Assembly: GCA_945870855.1 (NCBI GenBank)
Contig: CAMBTP010000003.1
Coordinates: forward strand, 1-64,000
Origin: Prosthecobacter debontii
Lineage (GTDB): Bacteria; Verrucomicrobiota; Verrucomicrobiia; Verrucomicrobiales; Akkermansiaceae
Reading direction: 5' to 3'
DNA: 64,000 nucleotides
Shown here one piece after another: positions 4,188 to 63,900 of this stretch; positions within the stretch are counted from its first letter, which is position 1, and the number at the start of each line of letters is the position of its first letter. Position numbers and translations under genes: made by a program. A model generated the notes under the pieces. That model was not told where the DNA came from, did no database searches, and saw only the letters and a program-made list of their open reading frames with translations.

Positions 4188-7100
4188 TCAAAGCCTCCGC
4201 TCCAACGCGGCGGCCACGCGTTTCTCGGAGATTTTGCCCTTCACCTCGACATCGGGGGCGAAGGTTTGCACTCGCCATTCTTCCAGCAGCCAGCCTGCTT
4301 CCCAGAGCCTCGCATCCTCTGGCGCGGCCATCCATTCCGTGAACCATCCCTGCCAATGACGGCGGACGATATCCATTTTCTCCAGATCCTTTACCAAAGG
4401 TAAACTTGCCACCCGACCTAGCCGTGAGCGAATGGCACGCAGCCGTCGTGGATAATCAATGAGCCGCGCGTAGCCCGCCCGCCATGCCCATTTTGCTCGG
4501 AACAGCCACGCGAGTTCCTCCTCAAGATCGGCGGCGATCTCACCATGGTTGCGATCATCTGCATGCGCGGAGATCCATTCCCGCACACTACGCACCGCAT
4601 CGACAATCCCATCCAGCGCCACTCCGATTTTCACCGCCGCCTCATACCAGCTGCCGTGCGTGGCTTCGTTGAGCTTCGCGAACGCCTCGGGGCTTCTCGG
4701 GAAATCGCCGCCTGCCACGCCCTCTGCTGTTAGAAGAATCAGATCTTCCATATCGATCCCAAACCTGCCCATCTCGACCTTTGCAAGCATGCCCATCGGG
4801 AATTTTTTCCGTAGGTAATCCACCTCTCGCTCCGCCGCCAAGATCAGCAAACGTGCTCCGCCCGCGCGATGCGATTCACGCGCCTCCTGAAGAATCGTGA
4901 AAGCCCGCACGCCCACCGTTTTTCCCTCATCCACCAAGGCAGGAAAAGTCGCACCACCCGCCGTCATGACTTCTTCCGGTAGGCACTCTCCATCCCAACG
5001 GCTCATACCACGACGCTCCACATCCGCCGTCGCCGCCGCCTCGAAGCGTGCCTTCATCCAGTCAGAGAGTTGTAATTTAAGCACGGCCACATCGGTGCCC
5101 ATCGCAAGCTCCCCGCCCTCGTCATCGCAGACCCAAATTTTCGTAATGAGGTGCTCGGGAAATTTCCCTGTATCGAACTCGCTGGGTGGAATCACGGCAC
5201 CCGTTCTATCGGAAACATAATCCGCAAGAGTAAACTCGATAGCCATCTCTTTCGGAGCACCCATCCAGAGCTCCGCAAAGCCACGCGCCACATCGCCGAT
5301 GGGCTGGCAGGCTTTGCGGTAATCCTTGGGCAACCCTCGCAGCAACAACTCCGCCCGCTCCTCCAGATTCCCATCGATCCCCCACCCCGGCAGCCACGCG
5401 GGCATTACTGGAAGCTGATCGACATGCACGCCGATGGTCACTCCATCGTCACGCTCGCCGGGCGCGCAATGGTAATAGACCGCATACTCCTCGCCCTCGT
5501 GGCGCAGGTTATCCGGGAAAAAATCCAGCCCTTTCAGCTCCTCCCAAACCACATCCGCCATACCCAGCATCAGCGAATCCTCGTTTGCCTCGCGCCACTT
5601 GTGGAAGGCCGCCGCCGTACTGATATCCAGCGGAATACGGTTTCCGAAAAACCTCACCACCGCATCCTCACTCCACAACATCCCGGGCCTTCTGAGCTTG
5701 TCCTCCAAGCCTTTAATCTCCTCCCGCATCGCCTCCATGTGATCGAGGAAACGCGTCTTTCTCCGCAGCCCGCCGCCTAAAATTCCCTCCCGTAGAAACA
5801 CCTCGTGCGCCGCCTTTTTGTCCACCCGCCCGTAATGCACACGCCGGCCCTCGATGACGTGCAGCCCGCCGCAGATCACCGTCTCCTTGCCATAGACAGC
5901 TCCCTGTTTCTCGTCCCAATGCGCCTCGCCGTAACGACTGCGGCACAGATGCGGCGCCACCGTCTCCACCCACTCCGGTTCGATCCGCGCCACCCGCCGC
6001 GCCCACAGCCGGCTCGTCTCCACCATCTCTAAGCCCATCACCCACTCGTTGCGTTTCTTCAGCGAAAACAAACACGACCCCGGAAACACCGCGAAGAAAC
6101 CACCCGCAGCACTCCGGTAAGCCTTGTTCTCCTTATCCCACAGCCCGAACTGCCGCGGTGCTCCCGCGAGCAAAGCACGGTGCAGCGCCGCATAATCCGG
6201 GTCTTCCCTCTTACTTGGGATTTGAATTTTGAAATTTGAAATTTCCGCCAACTCCTCGATCACATTCCCCCACTCTGTCACCCGCTTCGCGTTGAGAAAA
6301 TTCGCACCGCAGAATTTCCGAAGCTGGTTCCACTTCCACCTACGCCCATCGTAGTAGTTGGAAACGTCGCGCCACAGATTCAGGATCGCCATGAAATCGC
6401 TGTCCGCATCATTCCACTTCGCGTGAGCGGCATCCGCCTCGCGCTTTTTATCAGCCGGGCGCTCGCGCGGATCGCTGGTCTCCAGCGCGGCGACGATCAC
6501 CGTCACCTCATCCACGCATTTCTCGTGATGCGCCTCGATCAGCATCCGCCCCATGCGCGGATCCACCGGCAGACGCGCCAGCTCCTGGCCAATTTCTGTC
6601 AGCTCCCTGTCCGTATCGAGCGCGCCAACCTCGCGCAGCGTCCGGTATCCCTCGGCCACTGCTTTCGGGTTCGGCGGATCGAGGAAAGGGAACTCGGAAA
6701 TCTCCGGCAGCCCCAGCGATTTCATTCGCAGGATCACACCCGCCAGCGAGCTGCGGCGAATTTCCGGCTCCGTGAAATCAGGCCGATCCAGCAAATCCTC
6801 TTCTGCGTAGAGCCGCAGGCAAACGCCGTCCCGCACCCGCCCGCAACGCCCCTTCCGCTGCCGAGCGCTGGCTTGGCTCACCGGCTCCACCTGCAAGCGC
6901 TGCACGCCCTTCGCCGCATTCCACCGGCTAACCCGTGCCAGACCGCTGTCCAGCACGCAAGCGATGCGCGGGATGGTCAGGCTCGTTTCCGCCACGTTTG
7001 TCGCCAGCACAATGCGCCTTAGCCGCCCCGGCTCGAACACCCGTTGCTGATCTGCCATCCCCAGCCTCGCAAACAGCGGCAGCACCTCGGTATTCCGATA

Positions 7101-7913
7101 GCGCCTACCCTCCAGCGCATCCGCGCACTCGCGGATCTCGCGCTCGCCCGGCAGGAAAATAAGCGTGTCGCCCATGGGATCGATATCATTGAGCTGATCC
7201 ATCCCCCGCGCAACCAGCGAGGCCAGTTCTTCATCGTCCTTGCCCGGCAGGAAAAACTCCGCCACCGGAAACATCCGCCCCGGAGCCTCGATCACCGGCA
7301 CGCGTAGCTGCCGCGTCTCGCGGCAGTCCGTGGAATTGGCGTCTCGCCGATTGCTAAAAAACTCCGCAAAAGCCCCCGCATCCAAAGTCGCCGAGGAAAT
7401 CACTATCCGCAGATCCGGCCGCTTTTCTAACAGCCTTTTCAAATACCCCAGCAGGAAATCAATATTCAATGATCTCTCATGCGCCTCGTCGAGAATCAGC
7501 GCGTCGTATTTCGCCAATCCCGCATCCCCCTGCGTCTCCGCCAACAGGATGCCATCCGTCATAAACTTGATCCGCGTTTCCCGCGAAGTCTTGTCATCGA
7601 ACCTTACCTGATACCCCACGAACCCACCCAGCGGCACCGCCAGTTCCTCCGCCACCCGCTTCGCCACACTCACCGCCGCAATCCGCCGCGGCTGCGTACA
7701 CCCAATGATCTTCCTCTTACTTGAAATTTGAGATTTGAAATTTGAGATTTCAAGCGCCTCCGCGACCATTTTGGGCAACTGCGTCGTCTTCCCACTGCCC
7801 GTATCGGAAACCACCACCACCACCTGATTCTCCCGGATCGCGGCGATGATCTCCTCCCGCCTCTCCACAACCGGTAATTCACCCGGATAATTCCACCTGC
7901 CCGAAAAACTCAT
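4188..7913 (-). CDS. hrpA: ATP-dependent RNA helicase, HrpA type (DEAH box, DUF3418)
   Basis: A 1241-aa DEAH-box helicase close to the roughly 1300 residues of E. coli HrpA, which acts on mRNA and stalled ribosomes. Walker A is DTGSGKTTQLPK (37-48), motif Ia is TQPRRIAA (73-80), then DEAHERSLNIDF, SSATLD, and motifs V/VI with NVAETSLTIP and QRKGRCGR. The C-terminal half is the HrpA-specific helical/DUF3418 part. Two near-identical peptides, EISNFKSQISSKRK (about 55-68) and EISNFKIQIPSKRE (about 557-570), are encoded by AT-rich repeats inserted in the same codon phase. The first lies between motif I and motif Ia, where related helicases have a short variable loop. Core motifs are intact, so the enzyme should be functional. 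Confidence 0.93.
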   Translation of the reverse strand: MSFSGRWNYPGELPVVERREEIIAAIRENQVVVVVSDTGSGKTTQLPKMVAEALEISNFKSQISSKRKIIGCTQPRRIAAVSVAKRVAEELAVPLGGFVGYQVRFDDKTSRETRIKFMTDGILLAETQGDAGLAKYDALILDEAHERSLNIDFLLGYLKRLLEKRPDLRIVISSATLDAGAFAEFFSNRRDANSTDCRETRQLRVPVIEAPGRMFPVAEFFLPGKDDEELASLVARGMDQLNDIDPMGDTLIFLPGEREIRECADALEGRRYRNTEVLPLFARLGMADQQRVFEPGRLRRIVLATNVAETSLTIPRIACVLDSGLARVSRWNAAKGVQRLQVEPVSQASARQRKGRCGRVRDGVCLRLYAEEDLLDRPDFTEPEIRRSSLAGVILRMKSLGLPEISEFPFLDPPNPKAVAEGYRTLREVGALDTDRELTEIGQELARLPVDPRMGRMLIEAHHEKCVDEVTVIVAALETSDPRERPADKKREADAAHAKWNDADSDFMAILNLWRDVSNYYDGRRWKWNQLRKFCGANFLNAKRVTEWGNVIEELAEISNFKIQIPSKREDPDYAALHRALLAGAPRQFGLWDKENKAYRSAAGGFFAVFPGSCLFSLKKRNEWVMGLEMVETSRLWARRVARIEPEWVETVAPHLCRSRYGEAHWDEKQGAVYGKETVICGGLHVIEGRRVHYGRVDKKAAHEVFLREGILGGGLRRKTRFLDHMEAMREEIKGLEDKLRRPGMLWSEDAVVRFFGNRIPLDISTAAAFHKWREANEDSLMLGMADVVWEELKGLDFFPDNLRHEGEEYAVYYHCAPGERDDGVTIGVHVDQLPVMPAWLPGWGIDGNLEERAELLLRGLPKDYRKACQPIGDVARGFAELWMGAPKEMAIEFTLADYVSDRTGAVIPPSEFDTGKFPEHLITKIWVCDDEGGELAMGTDVAVLKLQLSDWMKARFEAAATADVERRGMSRWDGECLPEEVMTAGGATFPALVDEGKTVGVRAFTILQEARESHRAGGARLLILAAEREVDYLRKKFPMGMLAKVEMGRFGIDMEDLILLTAEGVAGGDFPRSPEAFAKLNEATHGSWYEAAVKIGVALDGIVDAVRSVREWISAHADDRNHGEIAADLEEELAWLFRAKWAWRAGYARLIDYPRRLRAIRSRLGRVASLPLVKDLEKMDIVRRHWQGWFTEWMAAPEDARLWEAGWLLEEWRVQTFAPDVEVKGKISEKRVAAALERRL
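6202..6245 (-). repeat. AT-rich interspersed repeat, in-frame copy 2 in hrpA
   Basis: On the minus strand this reads GAAATTTCAAATTTCAAAAT, continues with two more ATTC-type units, then CCCAAGTAAGAGGGAAGA. It aligns with the inverted-repeat arm at 62369-62406 apart from a TAAGAGG insertion before the terminal GAAGA. It adds about 14 codons (EISNFKIQIPSKRE) near residue 557 of the helicase and starts on the first base of a codon. Confidence 0.75.
7709..7754 (-). repeat. AT-rich interspersed repeat, in-frame copy 1 in hrpA
   Basis: On the minus strand this reads GAAATCTCAAATTTCAAATC and ends CAAGTAAGAGGAAGA. It is the close sister of the copy at 6202-6245: same orientation, same reading phase, nearly the same encoded peptide (EISNFKSQISSKRK). 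It is inserted between helicase motifs I and Ia. Confidence 0.75.
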
Positions 7914-46322: not shown

Positions 46323-46416
46323 AATATGGAGAAGGGGTTTGAAACCCCTTTGCAGAGGATCGGGAAATGGGTTCGCTTTGGTTGTGTAAAGGGGTTTCAA
46401 ACCCCTTCTCCATATT
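46323..46416. mobile_element. 94-bp palindromic element at the uvrB 3' end (MITE-like)
   Basis: Perfect 29-bp inverted arms (46323-46351 and 46388-46416) enclose a 36-bp core. Each arm starts AATATGGAG and contains GGGGTTTGAAACCCC, itself almost a palindrome, so the whole could form a cloverleaf. TTAGCGC occurs at both borders (46316-46322 and 46415-46421). It has no coding capacity. It may be a MITE/REP-like insertion that also serves as the uvrB terminator; the uvrB stop codon lies at its right border. Confidence 0.65.
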
Positions 46417-48580
46417 AGCGCTTCTTTGCATACTTTACCTTTTTCTGCGGTGGCATGACGGGCGTGGCGTTTTTTAGCGTGGCGATCTGGTCGCGGAGGT
46501 GGGCGGCGCGTTCGAACTCAAGCTTGGAAGATGCTTCGCGCATTTCCTGCTCCAGCTCGGCAATGACTCGGAGCTTGTCGTAGGTAGTTTCGTCTTCGCC
46601 GACGAGAGAGGCGTTGAGTTTTTCGGCGTGCTGCTTGCCTTTTTCGTAGGAATGGAGGCTCTGTTGGACGGAACGGATGACGGATTGCGGGGTGATGCAG
46701 TGCTCCTCGTTGTGGGCGATCTGGCGGGCGCGGCGGTATTCGGTGACGTTGATTAAGGTCTGGATGGAATCAGTGACGACATCCGCGAAAAGCACGCACT
46801 CGCCGTTGAGGTGGCGGGCGGCGCGGCCTGCGGTCTGGATAAGAGAGGTTTCGTTGCGGAGGAAACCTTCCTTGTCGGCGTCGAGGATGCAGACGAGCGA
46901 AACTTCCGGGAGGTCGAGGCCCTCGCGGAGGAGGTTTATGCCGATGAGGATGTCGAAGGTGGCGGCGCGGAGCTGGCGCAGGATTTCCACTCGCTCGATC
47001 GCATCGATATCGGAGTGGAGGTAGCGGCATTTCAGGCCGGTAGAGGAAAGGTATTCGGCGAGGTCTTCGGCGGTTTTCTTGGTGAGTGTGGTGACGAGGA
47101 CGCGCTCGCCTTTCTCCACCCGCTGGCGGCAGAGCTCGATGGTCTCGTCGATCTGGCTCTTGAGCGGGCGGATCGTGAGCACCGGATCGAGCAGGCCTGT
47201 GGGGCGGATGATCTGTTCTACTACGAGCGGCGTACCTCGTTTGTCTGGATGGAAATCGGCGATGGACTCTGCGTTGCCCGAGGGCTTGACCTTGATTTTC
47301 TTGAAATCGAAGGGAGTCAACCCGTCCTCGCCAAGCCTGCCTTTCGTGGCGATGAACTTTGTGTTTTCAGGCCGCGAGTTGACGATATCAAACGGCCCCG
47401 GCGTGGCGGAGACATAGACGCGCTGGCTCGTCATTTCCATGAACTCGTCGAAGCGCAGAGGGCGGTTGTCCATTGCAGAGGGCAGGCGAAAGCCGTGCTC
47501 GACCAAGGTCGTCTTCCGTGATTTATCGCCCTCGAACATCCCGCCGATCTGCGGGATCGTGGCATGGGATTCATCGACAAGCAGGAGGAAATCGCGCGGA
47601 AAGAAATCGAGCAGCGTATGCGGGCGCGAGCCGGGCGGTCGACCTGTTAGATGGCGCGAGTAGTTTTCGATGCCTTGGCAGAAACCCATTTCCGACATCA
47701 TCTCCAGATCGTATTCCGTCCGCATCCGCAGGCGCTGTGCCTCGATGAGCTTCCCCCCCTTTTCCAGCTCCGGGATGCGCGTGTCGAGCTCCTCACGGAT
47801 TTTTCCAATCGCGGTCTTCATCTTATCACCGGCGGTGACGAACTGCTTGGCGGGGTAGAGTGTGTGATTTTCCAAAATCTCGATCACTTTCCCGCTGACC
47901 GTGTGGATGGAGGATATGCGCTCCACCTCATCGCCGAAGAACTCGATACGGATCGCGGTCTCATCGAGGTAAGCGGGATGGACTTCAACCACGTCTCCCC
48001 TCACCCGGTATTTCCCGCGACCGAAAGCGATGTCATTTCTTTCGAAAAGCATTCCGACGAGGGCGTTAAGCAATTCCTCGCGGGTAATGCGTTGGCCCGT
48101 AAAAACCGGGAACATCATGTCCTTGTAATCCTCCGGCGACCCCAGGCCGTAGATGCAGGATACGGAGGCGATTACGATCGTGTCCTCGCGTGTGAGTAGC
48201 GAGCCCATCGTCGAGAGCCGGAGCCGCTCGATCTCCTCGTTGATCGAAGAATCCTTCTCGATGTAGGTGTCGGAGCGAGGGATATAGGCCTCGGGTTGGT
48301 AGTAATCGAAATAGGAGACGAAATACTCGACCGCGTTGTGTGGAAAAAAGTTTTTGAACTCGGAGTAAAGCTGTGCGGCGAGGGTTTTATTGTGGCTCAT
48401 CACCAGCGCGGGCTTGCCGTGGCGTGCGATGAGATTCGCCATGGTGAACGTTTTTCCAGAACCTGTGACCCCGAGCAAAGTCTGGTGCTTATTCCCCGCT
48501 TCCAGGGATTTCACCAGCTTCTCGATCGCCTGATGCTGGTCGCCCTGGGGGCTGTATTCGCTGGAGAGGCGGAAAGGCAT
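46415..48580 (-). CDS. uvrB: Excinuclease ABC subunit B
   Basis: A 721-aa protein. UvrB verifies DNA damage in nucleotide excision repair. Walker A is GVTGSGKTFT; the beta-hairpin YFDYYQPEAYIPRSDTYIEK, VDESHATIPQ, and QTAGRAARHLNG (motif VI) are all present. The C-terminal UVR motif (KLEFERAAHLRDQIATL) binds UvrC. MPFRLSSEYSPQGDQ is taken as the start. The 3' end was altered by a palindromic element: the tail KNATPVMPPQKKVKYAKKR has a diverged second copy beyond the stop. Confidence 0.96.
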   Translation of the reverse strand: MPFRLSSEYSPQGDQHQAIEKLVKSLEAGNKHQTLLGVTGSGKTFTMANLIARHGKPALVMSHNKTLAAQLYSEFKNFFPHNAVEYFVSYFDYYQPEAYIPRSDTYIEKDSSINEEIERLRLSTMGSLLTREDTIVIASVSCIYGLGSPEDYKDMMFPVFTGQRITREELLNALVGMLFERNDIAFGRGKYRVRGDVVEVHPAYLDETAIRIEFFGDEVERISSIHTVSGKVIEILENHTLYPAKQFVTAGDKMKTAIGKIREELDTRIPELEKGGKLIEAQRLRMRTEYDLEMMSEMGFCQGIENYSRHLTGRPPGSRPHTLLDFFPRDFLLLVDESHATIPQIGGMFEGDKSRKTTLVEHGFRLPSAMDNRPLRFDEFMEMTSQRVYVSATPGPFDIVNSRPENTKFIATKGRLGEDGLTPFDFKKIKVKPSGNAESIADFHPDKRGTPLVVEQIIRPTGLLDPVLTIRPLKSQIDETIELCRQRVEKGERVLVTTLTKKTAEDLAEYLSSTGLKCRYLHSDIDAIERVEILRQLRAATFDILIGINLLREGLDLPEVSLVCILDADKEGFLRNETSLIQTAGRAARHLNGECVLFADVVTDSIQTLINVTEYRRARQIAHNEEHCITPQSVIRSVQQSLHSYEKGKQHAEKLNASLVGEDETTYDKLRVIAELEQEMREASSKLEFERAAHLRDQIATLKNATPVMPPQKKVKYAKKR

Positions 48581-48632
48581 GTGGCGGGAAGATGGGGCTT
48601 CTCCGGGATATTTCCAGCGGGGAAATCCCACC

Positions 48633-49793
48633 TCACTGCGGCAAGCCATCGCCTGCCGTTACACCGACGCGGGCGAACCCTTTTGTAGCTCCCTCGGGAA
48701 CCGGACGTCGGGACGTCACTTTTTCCCAAGCCGCATTCAGCGCCGCCTGTTCGGGCGGGAAATCGCTCGCTGCGGTTGTCACTGAGGCGGAGCTCCACGT
48801 GCCATCGAGAGCATCGGAAAACCACGGCTGATAGATCTCCGTCAGCAGCCGCGAACCGACGCGGCGGCGGGGATAGGTGAGCGTCTGATAGAGTGTGCCC
48901 CCTTCATTCACGAGCGAGAAAACCGGCATGCCCAGGCCGTCGGCGGCGGGAACGGGGCCGCCATGGAGCGGTTTCGTGCCGAAGGCGTATTCGAGGACGT
49001 TCGGGATGTCATCCCCATCCGGATCGGCGGCGAGCGAACTGATTTCCGGATCGGCCAACTGGACGGCTTCGAACGACTCACCCTGCCAGCGGGCGGTGGT
49101 GCCGACGGCGAAAATCAGCGTGAAAGGCTCGCTCAAACCGGTGGGATTCGTCGCGCCCGGGCCGAGAAACGCCGAGGCACGGAGGGTTACGCGGTGGATG
49201 CCTTGGGCGGTGAAACCGAACGATGCGTGGGTATGCGAACCGGCCGCGAAATAATAGGAATTTTCCACCGCCGTATTGAATGTGCTCATCCAGACTGTCG
49301 GCTGACCCGACACGGTGTTCCAGAGCGAGAAATGAGAGGTGGTTCCGTACGGGGGCTGGTAATCCACCAGCTGGATTCGGATCCATGGGCGGGCCGTGCC
49401 CTGTGGCACCCGGGGATCGCTCGGGATGTAACTCCCGAAGGTGCCTTCGGCTTGGTCGTTTCTGAAACCCGGCCAAGTCTCGCCGATACCGGGTGTGCCC
49501 TGTACCGCAATCCAAAGCGGCTGCCCGGCAGGAGCGCCGGTGAAAGAGAAAGCGGTGTTCGCGGGCTGGGTATGGCGAGCTCCGGCTATCGCGGGATTGC
49601 CGTTCACGTAGGGCTTGTCGGCCAGGGGCAGGAACGCGGCGGACGGTTCGTAGGAAGCCCCGTCCGTTTTGACGATGCAGTCCCATTCGCCGGCGGAAAA
49701 GTGGCAGCGGATATCGACGTGCTCTCCCAGCGCTTCCAGGCCCGCATGGGCGACGCCGGATGTGAGCAGGATGGAAATAAAGACAGCTTTCAT
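48633..49793 (-). CDS. Secreted choice-of-anchor-M protein
   Basis: A 386-aa protein with a signal peptide ending VAHA (about residue 17). Residues about 195-220 (AAGSHTHASFGFTAQGIHRV) match the surface-anchored repeat domain TIGR03769. Further on, DPDGDDIPNVLEYAFGTKP is a calcium-binding type motif common in Verrucomicrobia secreted proteins. It lacks a PEP-CTERM tail. It overlaps the upstream pseudopilin gene by 4 nt. The PEP-CTERM protein at 50598 carries the same AAGTHTHYNWGFTELGIH motif, so the two are paralogous partners. Confidence 0.75.
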   Translation of the reverse strand: MKAVFISILLTSGVAHAGLEALGEHVDIRCHFSAGEWDCIVKTDGASYEPSAAFLPLADKPYVNGNPAIAGARHTQPANTAFSFTGAPAGQPLWIAVQGTPGIGETWPGFRNDQAEGTFGSYIPSDPRVPQGTARPWIRIQLVDYQPPYGTTSHFSLWNTVSGQPTVWMSTFNTAVENSYYFAAGSHTHASFGFTAQGIHRVTLRASAFLGPGATNPTGLSEPFTLIFAVGTTARWQGESFEAVQLADPEISSLAADPDGDDIPNVLEYAFGTKPLHGGPVPAADGLGMPVFSLVNEGGTLYQTLTYPRRRVGSRLLTEIYQPWFSDALDGTWSSASVTTAASDFPPEQAALNAAWEKVTSRRPVPEGATKGFARVGVTAGDGLPQ

Positions 49794-60649: not shown

Positions 60650-62371
60650 ATGAGCCGCCTCCTCCTCGCTCTCCTCATTTTCCTCAGCACCCTTCACGCT
60701 CAGGAAACTCTCTTCCGCGTGGTCGCTGACACCAAGACCGACACCCACATCGAGGCCACCGCCCTGTTCTCGAACCCCAGCCTCGGCGGCTACCACCCCG
60801 TCCGCATCACCATCTCGAACAACCAGAAAATCCCGCACAAAGTCTTCCTCAATTTCAACAACACATCGGCCTACAGCCAGGGAATCAGCGCCTCCTCGAG
60901 TTTCTCATTCGAAGCCCCCCCGGGCGATGTGGTCGTGAGGGATATTCTCGTGCCCCTTACCGTCCAGAACGGAGACCACAATGCCCCCTCATTCAGCGTC
61001 CAGCTCAGTGGCTCGATGGGTAAAGCCCAAGGCTCCGCGAGTCCCATTTTCACCCCCACACTCGCCTGCGTCCTTCTCAGCGAGGCTCTTTACACCCCCA
61101 ATGGCTCAGCACTCGACACCGAGTCCGCCTCGCGCGGCACCTCCGGCTACGGTGGCATCAGAAATTTCTCCTCGAAATTCGATCCCAAACGCCTCCCCGA
61201 TGACTGGCGCGCCTTCTCGGGGTTCGACACCATCATCCTCACCGAGACAGATTGGGCGGATGTCCCACCCGGCCCGCGCAACGCCATCAACTCATGGGTG
61301 CGCCTCGGCGGACAGCTAATCGTTTATGCCACCGGCAATCCCACTCCTGCTTCCCTCGGGTTGCCCGAAGACTCGGGTTTCGGTGAAACTCTTATCGAAT
61401 CTATCGCCTCCGATCTCCGCCTCAAAGCCGCAGACACCGTCAACCTCGCCTACAAGAAGCGCGCCATCAAACACCGCCTCGCGGCGATCAGCAACGATTT
61501 CAATTCCGTATGGCCGTTGCAGATAGCATTCGGGGAGAAATCATTTAATTACATCCTCTTCGTCGTCATACTACTCGCCTTCGGCATTGTCGTCGGTCCC
61601 GTGAACCTCTTCGTCTTCGCGAAATCCGGCCGCCGCCACCGCCTTTTCATCACCACCCCGCTGATCTCCATAGGCACCTCGTTCATCCTCATCGCACTGA
61701 TTATTTTCGAGGATGGATTCGGCGGAAATGGCACACGCATTACATTGATGGAAGTCCGCCCGGACGGAAACCAGAACGCCGCCTTCATCCAGCAGGAGCA
61801 GTTTTCCCGCAGCGGCGTGATGACCTCAACCTCCTTCACCGTGGAAACGCCGGCTCTCATCGCTCAAACCCCGCTCGCCATGAGCCGTTGGGCACGTTTC
61901 ACCTCCGGCTTCCGCTCCTCGGGAACCTATGATCTCCAACCCACATCCGGCGGTCTCTTCGCCAGCGGCGATTGGTTCCAGAGCCGCTCCGAGCAAGGCC
62001 AACTCGTCACCGCCGTGCTCCCCACCCGCGGCCGCATCGAGGCCACCAACGACCCCGCCACCATCGTCTCCACCTTCGATTTCTCCATCGAAATCCTCCT
62101 CTACCGCGACCCCTCCGGCCAATGGCACCGCGGTGAAAATATAGGAAAAGGCAAGCCCACCAAGCTCACCCCCGTCGATCCCACCATGGTGCAGCCCATC
62201 CTCAACGACACCGCCAAACTCTTCACCGACCGCAACCAAGCCTTCCTCCGCCGCGTCGCCGACCGCAACGACGCATACATCGCCTTCGCCAAACAAGCGC
62301 CCGCCATCGAGACCCACCCCGGCATCAACTGGCAGTCCGACACAGTCATCACCGGCCCCATCGCCCGCTGA
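60650..62371 (+). CDS. Secreted/membrane protein of the MoxR-ABC operon
   Basis: A 573-aa protein. The signal peptide is MSRLLLALLIFLSTLHAQE. A beta-rich domain (about 20-300) includes FNNTSAYSQGISASSSFSFE. Then two membrane segments (about 300-350): YILFVVILLAFGIVVGPVNL and LISIGTSFILIALIIFEDGF. A C-terminal periplasmic part follows. Context (MoxR before, ABC transporter after) recalls gliding-type or exopolysaccharide export operons, but no specific family is recognised. Its TGA stop forms the left edge of the repeat-bounded unit at 62369. Confidence 0.75.
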   Translation: MSRLLLALLIFLSTLHAQETLFRVVADTKTDTHIEATALFSNPSLGGYHPVRITISNNQKIPHKVFLNFNNTSAYSQGISASSSFSFEAPPGDVVVRDILVPLTVQNGDHNAPSFSVQLSGSMGKAQGSASPIFTPTLACVLLSEALYTPNGSALDTESASRGTSGYGGIRNFSSKFDPKRLPDDWRAFSGFDTIILTETDWADVPPGPRNAINSWVRLGGQLIVYATGNPTPASLGLPEDSGFGETLIESIASDLRLKAADTVNLAYKKRAIKHRLAAISNDFNSVWPLQIAFGEKSFNYILFVVILLAFGIVVGPVNLFVFAKSGRRHRLFITTPLISIGTSFILIALIIFEDGFGGNGTRITLMEVRPDGNQNAAFIQQEQFSRSGVMTSTSFTVETPALIAQTPLAMSRWARFTSGFRSSGTYDLQPTSGGLFASGDWFQSRSEQGQLVTAVLPTRGRIEATNDPATIVSTFDFSIEILLYRDPSGQWHRGENIGKGKPTKLTPVDPTMVQPILNDTAKLFTDRNQAFLRRVADRNDAYIAFAKQAPAIETHPGINWQSDTVITGPIAR

Positions 62372-62406
62372 AAATTCAAAATTCAAAATTCAACTCTCAA
62401 GGAAGA
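62369..62406 (+). repeat. Left 38-bp inverted repeat of the four-helix-bundle unit
   Basis: It reads TGAAAATTCAAAATTC, another AAAATTC unit, then CAACTCTCAAGGAAGA. It is the exact reverse complement of 62798-62835. The first three bases are the stop codon of the upstream gene; GGAAG near the inner end sits 6 nt before the ATG at 62412 and probably serves as its ribosome-binding site. Confidence 0.9.
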
Positions 62407-62411
62407 AAAGG

Positions 62412-62807
62412 ATGTCGGCTCAACGGAACAAAGAGAAACCATACGATCTGGAGGAGCGCACTTACGCCTTCGCACTCGAAGTCCGACATTTTCTCCGAAA
62501 CACCAAGTGGGATCCAGTCTCTTGGTCTGATATCAAGCAGGTTCTCCGCTCCTCAGGCTCCGTTGCGGCGAATTATCTCGAAGCTCTCGAATCTCTCAGC
62601 CCAGACGATTACCTTTACCGTATCCGCATTTGCAAAAAAGAAGCACGCGAATCGGGACTCTGGCTTCAGCTTATAAGTGACAGCAACCCCATCGACGAAT
62701 CGATCCACCGCTCCCTCGACGACCTGATTGGCGAAACCAGTGAACTCGTTAAAATCTTCTCATCCATAATCCGTAACAAAACCACGCAAAACCAACATCT
62801 TCCTTGA
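62412..62807 (+). CDS. Four-helix-bundle protein (TIGR02436/S23 family)
   Basis: A 131-aa protein. RSSGSVAANYLEALESLSPD and YRIRICKKEARESGLWLQLI match the core of the four-helix-bundle family first seen in intervening sequences of 23S rRNA genes. Members form small pentamers with basic surfaces; bacterial DGR Avd proteins are relatives. The ribosome-binding site lies in the left inverted repeat, and the last residues (HLP) and the stop codon TGA lie in the right one. Role unknown; presence between inverted repeats suggests it helps the unit spread or be kept. Confidence 0.88.
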   Translation: MSAQRNKEKPYDLEERTYAFALEVRHFLRNTKWDPVSWSDIKQVLRSSGSVAANYLEALESLSPDDYLYRIRICKKEARESGLWLQLISDSNPIDESIHRSLDDLIGETSELVKIFSSIIRNKTTQNQHLP

Positions 62808-62835
62808 GAGTTGAATTTTGAATTTTGAATTTTCA
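62798..62835 (+). repeat. Right 38-bp inverted repeat of the four-helix-bundle unit
   Basis: It reads TCTTCCTTGAGAGTTGAA and continues with GAATTTT units to TTCA. It is the exact reverse complement of the left repeat. It contains the stop codon of the four-helix-bundle gene at its inner end, and its last base is the A of the ATG of the ABC ATPase gene. Confidence 0.9.
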
Positions 62836-63857: not shown

Positions 63858-63863
63858 CCAGCC

Positions 63864-63900
63864 TCTTCCTTGAGAGTTGAACTTTGAAATTTGAATTTTA
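63864..63900 (+). repeat. Solo copy of the AT-rich repeat
   Basis: It reads TCTTCCTTGAGAGTTGAA, then CTTTGAAATTTGAATTTTA. It matches the right inverted repeat (62798-62835) at all but about three positions, in the same orientation. It lies between the ABC ATPase stop and the permease ATG, with no four-helix-bundle gene. AACCA occurs near both sides (63856 and 63900), too weak to call a target duplication. Confidence 0.8.

Follow-up and report, generated by a model that had tools for sequence, protein, structure and literature searches.

The window analyzed here is a 64,000-nt stretch of the Prosthecobacter debontii genome (contig CAMBTP010000003.1, positions 1–64,000). It contains hrpA, the gene of the ATP-dependent RNA helicase HrpA, which carries two copies of a dispersed heptad repeat inside its reading frame, and a complete element with the same type of arms at 62.4 kb (Table 1). 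The original prediction had placed both hrpA copies on the same strand and in frame. This was confirmed, and both copies begin on a codon. On the coding strand, the site 1 copy (7754–7713) corresponds to residues 54–67 (L-EISNFKSQISSKR), with EISNFKSQISSKR itself occupying residues 55–67; the site 2 copy (6245–6207) encodes EISNFKIQIPSKR, which begins at residue 557. The sequences GSGKTTQ and QPRRIAA, which we take to be motifs I and Ia of HrpA, flank site 1 and are intact, as had been proposed.

Table 1. Positions in the window of hrpA, its in-frame arms and the heptad-armed element at 62.4 kb.
Feature	Position	Strand	Remarks
hrpA, ATP-dependent RNA helicase HrpA, 1241 aa	4188..7913	minus	hosts both in-frame arms; TIGR01967, 1129 bits
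Lone heptad arm, hrpA site 2	6207..6245	minus	AAATTTC/AAAATTC units + tail CAAGTAAGAGG; encodes EISNFKIQIPSKR near residue 557
Lone heptad arm, hrpA site 1	7713..7754	minus	four AAATYTC units + tail CAAGTAAGAGG; encodes EISNFKSQISSKR between motifs I and Ia
Complete heptad-armed element of the intervening-sequence protein (IVP) type	62369..62835		orthologous site empty in G005 and G009; degraded in G004; G015 and G017 retain it intact, with altered arms
Left arm of complete element	62369..62406	+	38-nt, 100% inverted repeat; first bases give the TGA stop of the upstream gene
TIGR02436/PF05635 gene, four-helix-bundle / 23S rRNA intervening-sequence protein, 131 aa	62412..62807	+	stop codon inside the right arm
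Right arm of complete element, inverted	62798..62835	+	runs up to the start codon (ATG) of the ABC transporter gene
Third copy of the arm, behind the ABC transporter gene	63862..63899	minus	G005 has a TTTAAAG-type arm here

Genome-wide, the repeat consists of a tandem array of 7-mers (AAATTTC, AAAATTC or AAATCTC) followed by the inner tail CAAG(G/T/A)AAGAGG. At E ≤ 0.001, a 71-nt query around the 6.2-kb copy matched 33 places across the genome (2.98 Mb); one of these is the second hrpA copy, at 86% and E = 1.9e-7. The site 2 arm matched the arms at 62.4 kb at 86% over 37 nt. A TAAGAGG insertion earlier ascribed to the hrpA copies relative to the 62.4-kb arm turned out to be an alignment artefact: the tail aligns without any insertion, and the tails at 62.4 kb (CAAGGAAGA) and in hrpA (CAAGTAAGA) differ in one base. 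A perfect (AAATTTC)n array encodes the cyclic peptide (KFQISNF)n, identical in all three frames because 7 = 1 mod 3. The identical reading phase of the two hrpA copies was correctly noted but is therefore weak evidence, since such an array encodes one peptide whatever the frame. Read from the opposite strand, the array runs into TGA whichever frame is used, and thus only one arm orientation is tolerable in genes. A pattern search for a CAGAG unit in the same genome returned four sites (two of them overlapping) as compared with one control site.

The arms of the 62.4-kb element are perfectly complementary over 38 nt and lie 391 nt apart, and the gene between them belongs to TIGR02436 and is not a transposase. 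With this gene and inverted tandem arms, the locus falls within the definition of a heptad-armed TIGR02436 (IVP) element (a gene plus inverted arms of 7–8-nt units), whereas the hrpA copies are arms only. The orthologous site was found in several states among congeners. G005, the closest relative, whose HrpA is 93% identical, has no element at the junction and a 12-nt spacer instead, and the element is also absent from G009. G013 carries a palindrome of a different 8-nt family without a gene; G004 retains the pair of arms along with the gene's two ends. In G015 and G017 the gene is intact, and both arms have switched together to TTTAAAA/TTTAAAG units. In a second region, intergenic sites alternate arm families among five genomes, and one of these sites holds, in G005 and G004, a gene of the GxxExxY type between inverted arms of its own. 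Unlike a miniature inverted-repeat transposable element (MITE) with terminal inverted repeats, the 62.4-kb element shows no visible target-site duplication at the one junction compared base by base, and the gene between its arms does not make it a transposase-encoding parent. From the sequence, a conventional transposon is likewise disfavored, with no transposase between the arms and no target duplication visible.

To place this locus among its relatives, 191 TIGR02436 matches were collected from 41 congeneric genomes. The 102 distinct genes analyzed, of which 100 or 98 were within the flank-length limits, had been chosen mostly by rank, with sister genomes added, before their flanks were seen. 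An inverted flank score of at least 13 was obtained for 76 of 100 TIGR02436 genes and for 1 of 72 control genes. In the comparison with matched windows, inverted arms occurred at 74/98 loci versus 0/94 at a distance of 350 nt and 1/90 at 600 nt. Periodicity at lag 7 followed the same order (47/98 versus 1/94 and 4/90), with lag 8 at 13/98 and other lags at 0–1. The two arms of one element shared 5.67 of 7 unit bases (57 of 102 genes, those in which both flanks have a unit), as compared with 3.61 of 7 between elements. Units agreed at 6 or more of 7 bases in 65% of the pairs with at least 80% protein identity and in about 3% or less of those below 60%. The unit thus follows the protein only among close homologues, which means that the arms turn over faster than the gene. 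Strong protein–arm co-evolution was considered and rejected: a Mantel-type test gave r = 0.16 for all pairs (above all 1000 permutations) and r = 0.06 below 60% identity, a value reached by 5 of 1000 permutations. The window genome itself has eight TIGR02436 genes, several with an arm unit of their own.

A cross-phylum scan detected inverted arms at 46 of 77 testable TIGR02436 loci, including 33 of 60 outside Verrucomicrobiota/Lentisphaerota. Against matched windows the counts were 45/74 versus 1/71, 0/70 and 0/66 for inverted arms, and 47/74 versus 3, 2 and 6 for lag 7. Unit sharing was 5.44 of 7 bases within elements (48 of 80 scan loci) and 3.6 between them. Overall, the arm period was almost always 7 and sometimes 8, with differing units. 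These loci are the best 80 of at least 584 matches in named genomes (77 analyzed, three too short), and the scan alignment (A2) holds the NIAEG-type branch only; the sample is therefore biased to that branch and to the best matches. At least one locus (L228) belongs to both the genus and the cross-phylum sets. For plasmid-borne TIGR02436 genes, inverted arms were found at 9/12 loci versus 0/12 at 350 nt away, and arrays at lag 7 in 10/12 and at lag 8 in 1/12 (11/12 together). This set comprises 12 of the 19 plasmid records found, mostly from cyanobacteria; H9–H12 (all Riemerella), H14, H17 and H19 were left out. On a Pseudanabaena galeata plasmid (L331 1–1939), the four-helix-bundle gene stands between cas6 and cas4 with long AAAAGCT/AAAAGCC arrays on both sides, and Anabaena sp. 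90 shows a similar cas6–cas4 placement. As a separate observation, GxxExxY genes (TIGR04256; L192–L221, G000–G051) had inverted arms at 24 of the 27 parsed loci out of 30, with units of about 8–10 nt; these loci seemingly represent a parallel class of small element.

The HrpA proteins of relatives allowed both sites to be followed at the protein level. The alignment excludes L038 (wrong open reading frame, ORF) and L041–L046, and L031, L032 and L035 lack the N-terminus. At site 1, the loop is short (GDDGGR, for example) in congeners that do not belong to a five-genome clade, and the stretch from EAL to IGCT is 15 residues long in the window HrpA versus 6 in congeners. Repeat-derived inserts were seen at this site in 4 of 19 other readable HrpA sequences (G005, G015, G004 and G017) and in none of the remaining 15. 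The families differ between genomes: the AAATTTC type occurs in the window genome and G015, the CCAGAGA type in G005 and G017, and the CAGGGAT type in G004. The G005 insert is the only palindromic copy, contains both inverted arms in frame and adds a net 39 residues, whereas the window copies are single, non-palindromic arms. At site 2, AAATTTC arms are found in the window genome, G015 and G017, a CCGGAGA type in G004, and a TAAGCACGAAATC type in G005. In the search for clean indels against congeners that had been suggested originally, site 1 is a net gain; site 2 is a replacement, with no clean insertion.

We compared the loops with the arms of TIGR02436 elements, using shuffles that preserve base composition only and not tandem structure. 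All ten clade loops, which hold arms of at least three unit families, matched such arms; eight exceeded all 100 shuffles, site 1 of the window HrpA among them, and two equaled the best one. The same test on ten other congeners gave 0/20 loops above all shuffles and 1/20 above 95%. The variation of the HrpA loops tracks the DNA repeat families. A conserved protein motif as the source of both peptides was rejected on the alignment together with these tests: instead of being conserved over long distances with unrelated DNA, which would have pointed to ordinary protein sequence, the peptides are absent from 15 of the 19 other HrpA proteins readable at site 1. One could still regard the segments as ordinary fast-evolving AT-rich or charged surface loops that resemble the repeat through low-complexity convergence. 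The high variability of both loops in the genus, the unremarkable length of site 2 and the composition-only shuffles would suit such an origin. It is nevertheless already disfavored, and we hold it to be very improbable, given the 33 dispersed places matched with the non-periodic tail included, the contrast between 10/10 clade loops (two of them equal to the best shuffle) and 0/20 loops of other congeners, and the presence of both inverted arms at site 1 of G005.

The original prediction did not foresee that the phenomenon extends beyond hrpA and beyond Verrucomicrobiota, with armed TIGR02436 elements in other phyla and in-frame arms in LigA, LeuRS and IleRS of the window genome (the IleRS unit being AATATCC). 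Among the loops of relatives and the window genome, 6/9 in LigA, 3/10 in LeuRS and 1/6 of those readable in IleRS exceeded all shuffles. In the window genome, the IleRS loop does no better than tie with its best shuffle, and IleRS of G015, G017 and G004 fell outside the search pattern and was not counted. One LeuRS loop in G017 (L315), G014 (L317) and G018 (L319) accommodates, in frame, a domain of some 200 residues that resembles a Y1/RAYT-type transposase (RAYT, REP-associated tyrosine transposase; REP, repetitive extragenic palindrome), with the frame open. A Pfam search of the G017 copy gave Y1_Tnp at 2.8e-7, and this copy has an MPNHVHVLF motif.

Arms often adjoin gene starts. Of 44 scanned rows, 7 of which re-read an arm already listed, 6 terminate precisely at CAT, which is ATG on the complementary strand. 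Examples are the window arms at 62369, 62835 and 63899 and those in L005, L006, L047, L050, L051 and L057. This position raises the alternative that the heptad arrays are immobile host regulatory or simple-sequence repeats, which arise by replication slippage and are maintained close to start codons to control translation, as has been proposed for TAACTGA arrays in Beggiatoaceae. Such arrays would then merely be gathered by TIGR02436 genes and by protein loops. The fast turnover of units agrees with slippage, and MacGregor 2015 places heptamers directly upstream of start codons. Slippage does not readily account for inverted arms that flank one gene family far above matched windows, for a complete element that some genomes have and others lack at an orthologous site, for the conserved inner tail beyond the array, or for arm families that alternate at one HrpA loop, each resembling the arms of TIGR02436 elements. 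We therefore consider this alternative unlikely.

Heptameric repeats have been described in other bacteria. PMC4679880 reports TAACTGA heptamers of Beggiatoaceae directly upstream of start codons and treats them as regulatory. According to PMC4692102, GGGAATC of Xanthomonas sometimes occurs in inverted pairs and has no general association with mobile elements, the heptamers of Xanthomonas and Nostoc are regulatory or G-quadruplex repeats, and three Calothrix heptanucleotides are mentioned. The window arms resemble heptanucleotide simple repeats in their 7-nt unit, their mostly intergenic location near start codons and their variability between relatives. They differ in being the arms of TIGR02436 elements, where those papers invoke regulation, G-quadruplexes or slippage. 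The Calothrix heptanucleotides are presumably those named short tandemly repeated repetitive (STRR) sequences. As dispersed, mostly intergenic tandem 7-nt repeats, the arms also belong among STRR and simple sequence repeats (SSR).

The intervening sequences (IVSs) of 23S rRNA offer a closer parallel, and the four-helix-bundle gene family has so far been known chiefly from such rRNA insertions. PMC4990558 describes a 428-nt IVS of Coxiella burnetii that carries tandem GACAGAT heptamers by the S23p start codon; RNase III excises this IVS. Heptamers beside an S23p gene are thus the same pairing, here in a true rRNA IVS. The 62.4-kb element likewise has a PF05635/TIGR02436 gene with terminal inverted repeats, at 467 nt. 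It has the gene and inverted repeats expected of a 23S rRNA IVS, and the hrpA copies do not; the element lies between two protein genes and the hrpA copies lie inside one, not in helix 25 or 45 of 23S rRNA. The parallel nevertheless suggests a further alternative, in which the copies would be RNA-level inserts whose arm hairpins are cut by RNase III and which spread by RNA processing or reverse transcription. The shared protein family, the inverted arms of complete elements and the Coxiella heptamers with their RNase III excision speak for it. However, the lone window hrpA arms have no pairing partner and form no clearly stable hairpin in a fold test against shuffles (z = −1.8 and +0.74), and a cut hrpA mRNA would be destroyed. 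An RNA-level origin therefore appears quite improbable.

The sequences show dispersed copies, complete and empty orthologous sites, TIGR02436-element arms across phyla and arm families that alternate at the HrpA loops. We consider it probable that the two HrpA peptides arise by translation through lone arms, captured recurrently in frame, of heptad-armed IVP elements that lack a transposase. A complete element consists of an arm, (7-mer)n plus a purine-rich tail, then the four-helix-bundle gene (TIGR02436) and, inverted, the complement of that arm. Elements and arms would come and go at gene junctions and occasionally in variable loops of conserved genes. Because one strand of the arrays has no stop codon in any frame, an arm so oriented would add a short peptide if its length keeps the frame, and purifying selection would retain only in-frame, stop-free, loop-sited copies. 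The elements may move as units or as lone arms, with the four-helix-bundle protein possibly assisting through contact with the arms, bound either in DNA form or as an RNA hairpin, and host enzymes might perform the cutting and joining (strand transfer). Slippage and hairpin-templated repair could homogenize the arm units, and the peptides presumably remain in the mature helicase. A Xanthomonas relative of the four-helix-bundle protein has a solved structure (2GSC), and PMC4990558 describes S23p of X. campestris as a homopentamer.

Several findings weigh against read-through of captured arms. No movement was observed. At the 62.4-kb site, the sole empty-versus-filled junction examined base by base, the target shows no visible duplication and G005 has a different 12-nt spacer, so that the change looks like a spacer replacement. 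In the window genome, the AAATTTC arm occurs at only 1 of 8 TIGR02436 loci as compared with 33 arm places; thus the arms outnumber their possible sources. The inverted-arm criterion failed for 24/100 genus genes and 31/77 cross-phylum genes, and the way units track proteins does not suggest a fixed protein–arm recognition. Site 2 is no longer than in relatives (19 residues in the window HrpA versus 25 in G009), the palindromic insert of G005 does not fold more stably than its shuffled versions (z = −1.03), and the loop tests share the limits of their shuffles.

A wider, tentative proposal, which we regard as possible but would not rely on, sees in the TIGR02436/S23p genes across bacteria the protein-coding portion of a single class of mobile elements that lack a transposase and end in inverted 7-nt (sometimes 8-nt) arrays. 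The 23S IVSs would be its rRNA members, much of the heptamer excess would be lone arms, arms would seed loop peptides in essential enzymes, and the four-helix-bundle ring might be a new mobility or arm-binding factor. We did not find a general link between the TIGR02436 family and inverted 7-mer arrays stated in the open-access PMC literature, which does not prove its absence. S23p/IVP proteins have no known function according to PMC4990558, and PMC4692102 notes that bacterial genomes have an excess of heptameric repeats for which no explanation is accepted. One element that ties the two together makes both testable. Such an element would also supply essential enzymes (HrpA, LigA, LeuRS and IleRS) with new peptide segments, with sister species that differ in their inserts at one loop.

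Rickettsia palindromic elements are dispersed short repeats tolerated in frame within protein genes. The analogy drawn to them earlier stands for tolerated in-frame insertion in conserved genes (HrpA twice, LigA and LeuRS) and not for membership, the window copies being single arms. In addition, the window arms are tandem 7-mers, their units vary between sister genomes, and the full form has a protein gene. The REP/RAYT system also combines small dispersed repeats (REPs of 20–40 nt) with a related single-gene full form; it differs in that TIGR02436 is not a transposase and the arms here are tandem arrays. Enterobacterial RU elements and Coxiella QMITEs are MITE-like repeats that occur within ORFs, in some cases in frame; the available passages report no tandem 7-mer arms or four-helix-bundle gene for either (PMC2759123 and PMC5896051, respectively).

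Two further features were recorded. At window position 46323–46416, a 32-nt inverted repeat (97% complementary, arms 30 nt apart) adjoins the ORF at 46415–48649. The interval L108 4115–4886 (G000 contig C25) measures about 770 nt in the window genome versus about 10 nt in G005, and apparently holds two short ORFs resembling a toxin–antitoxin pair, as read from the ORFs.

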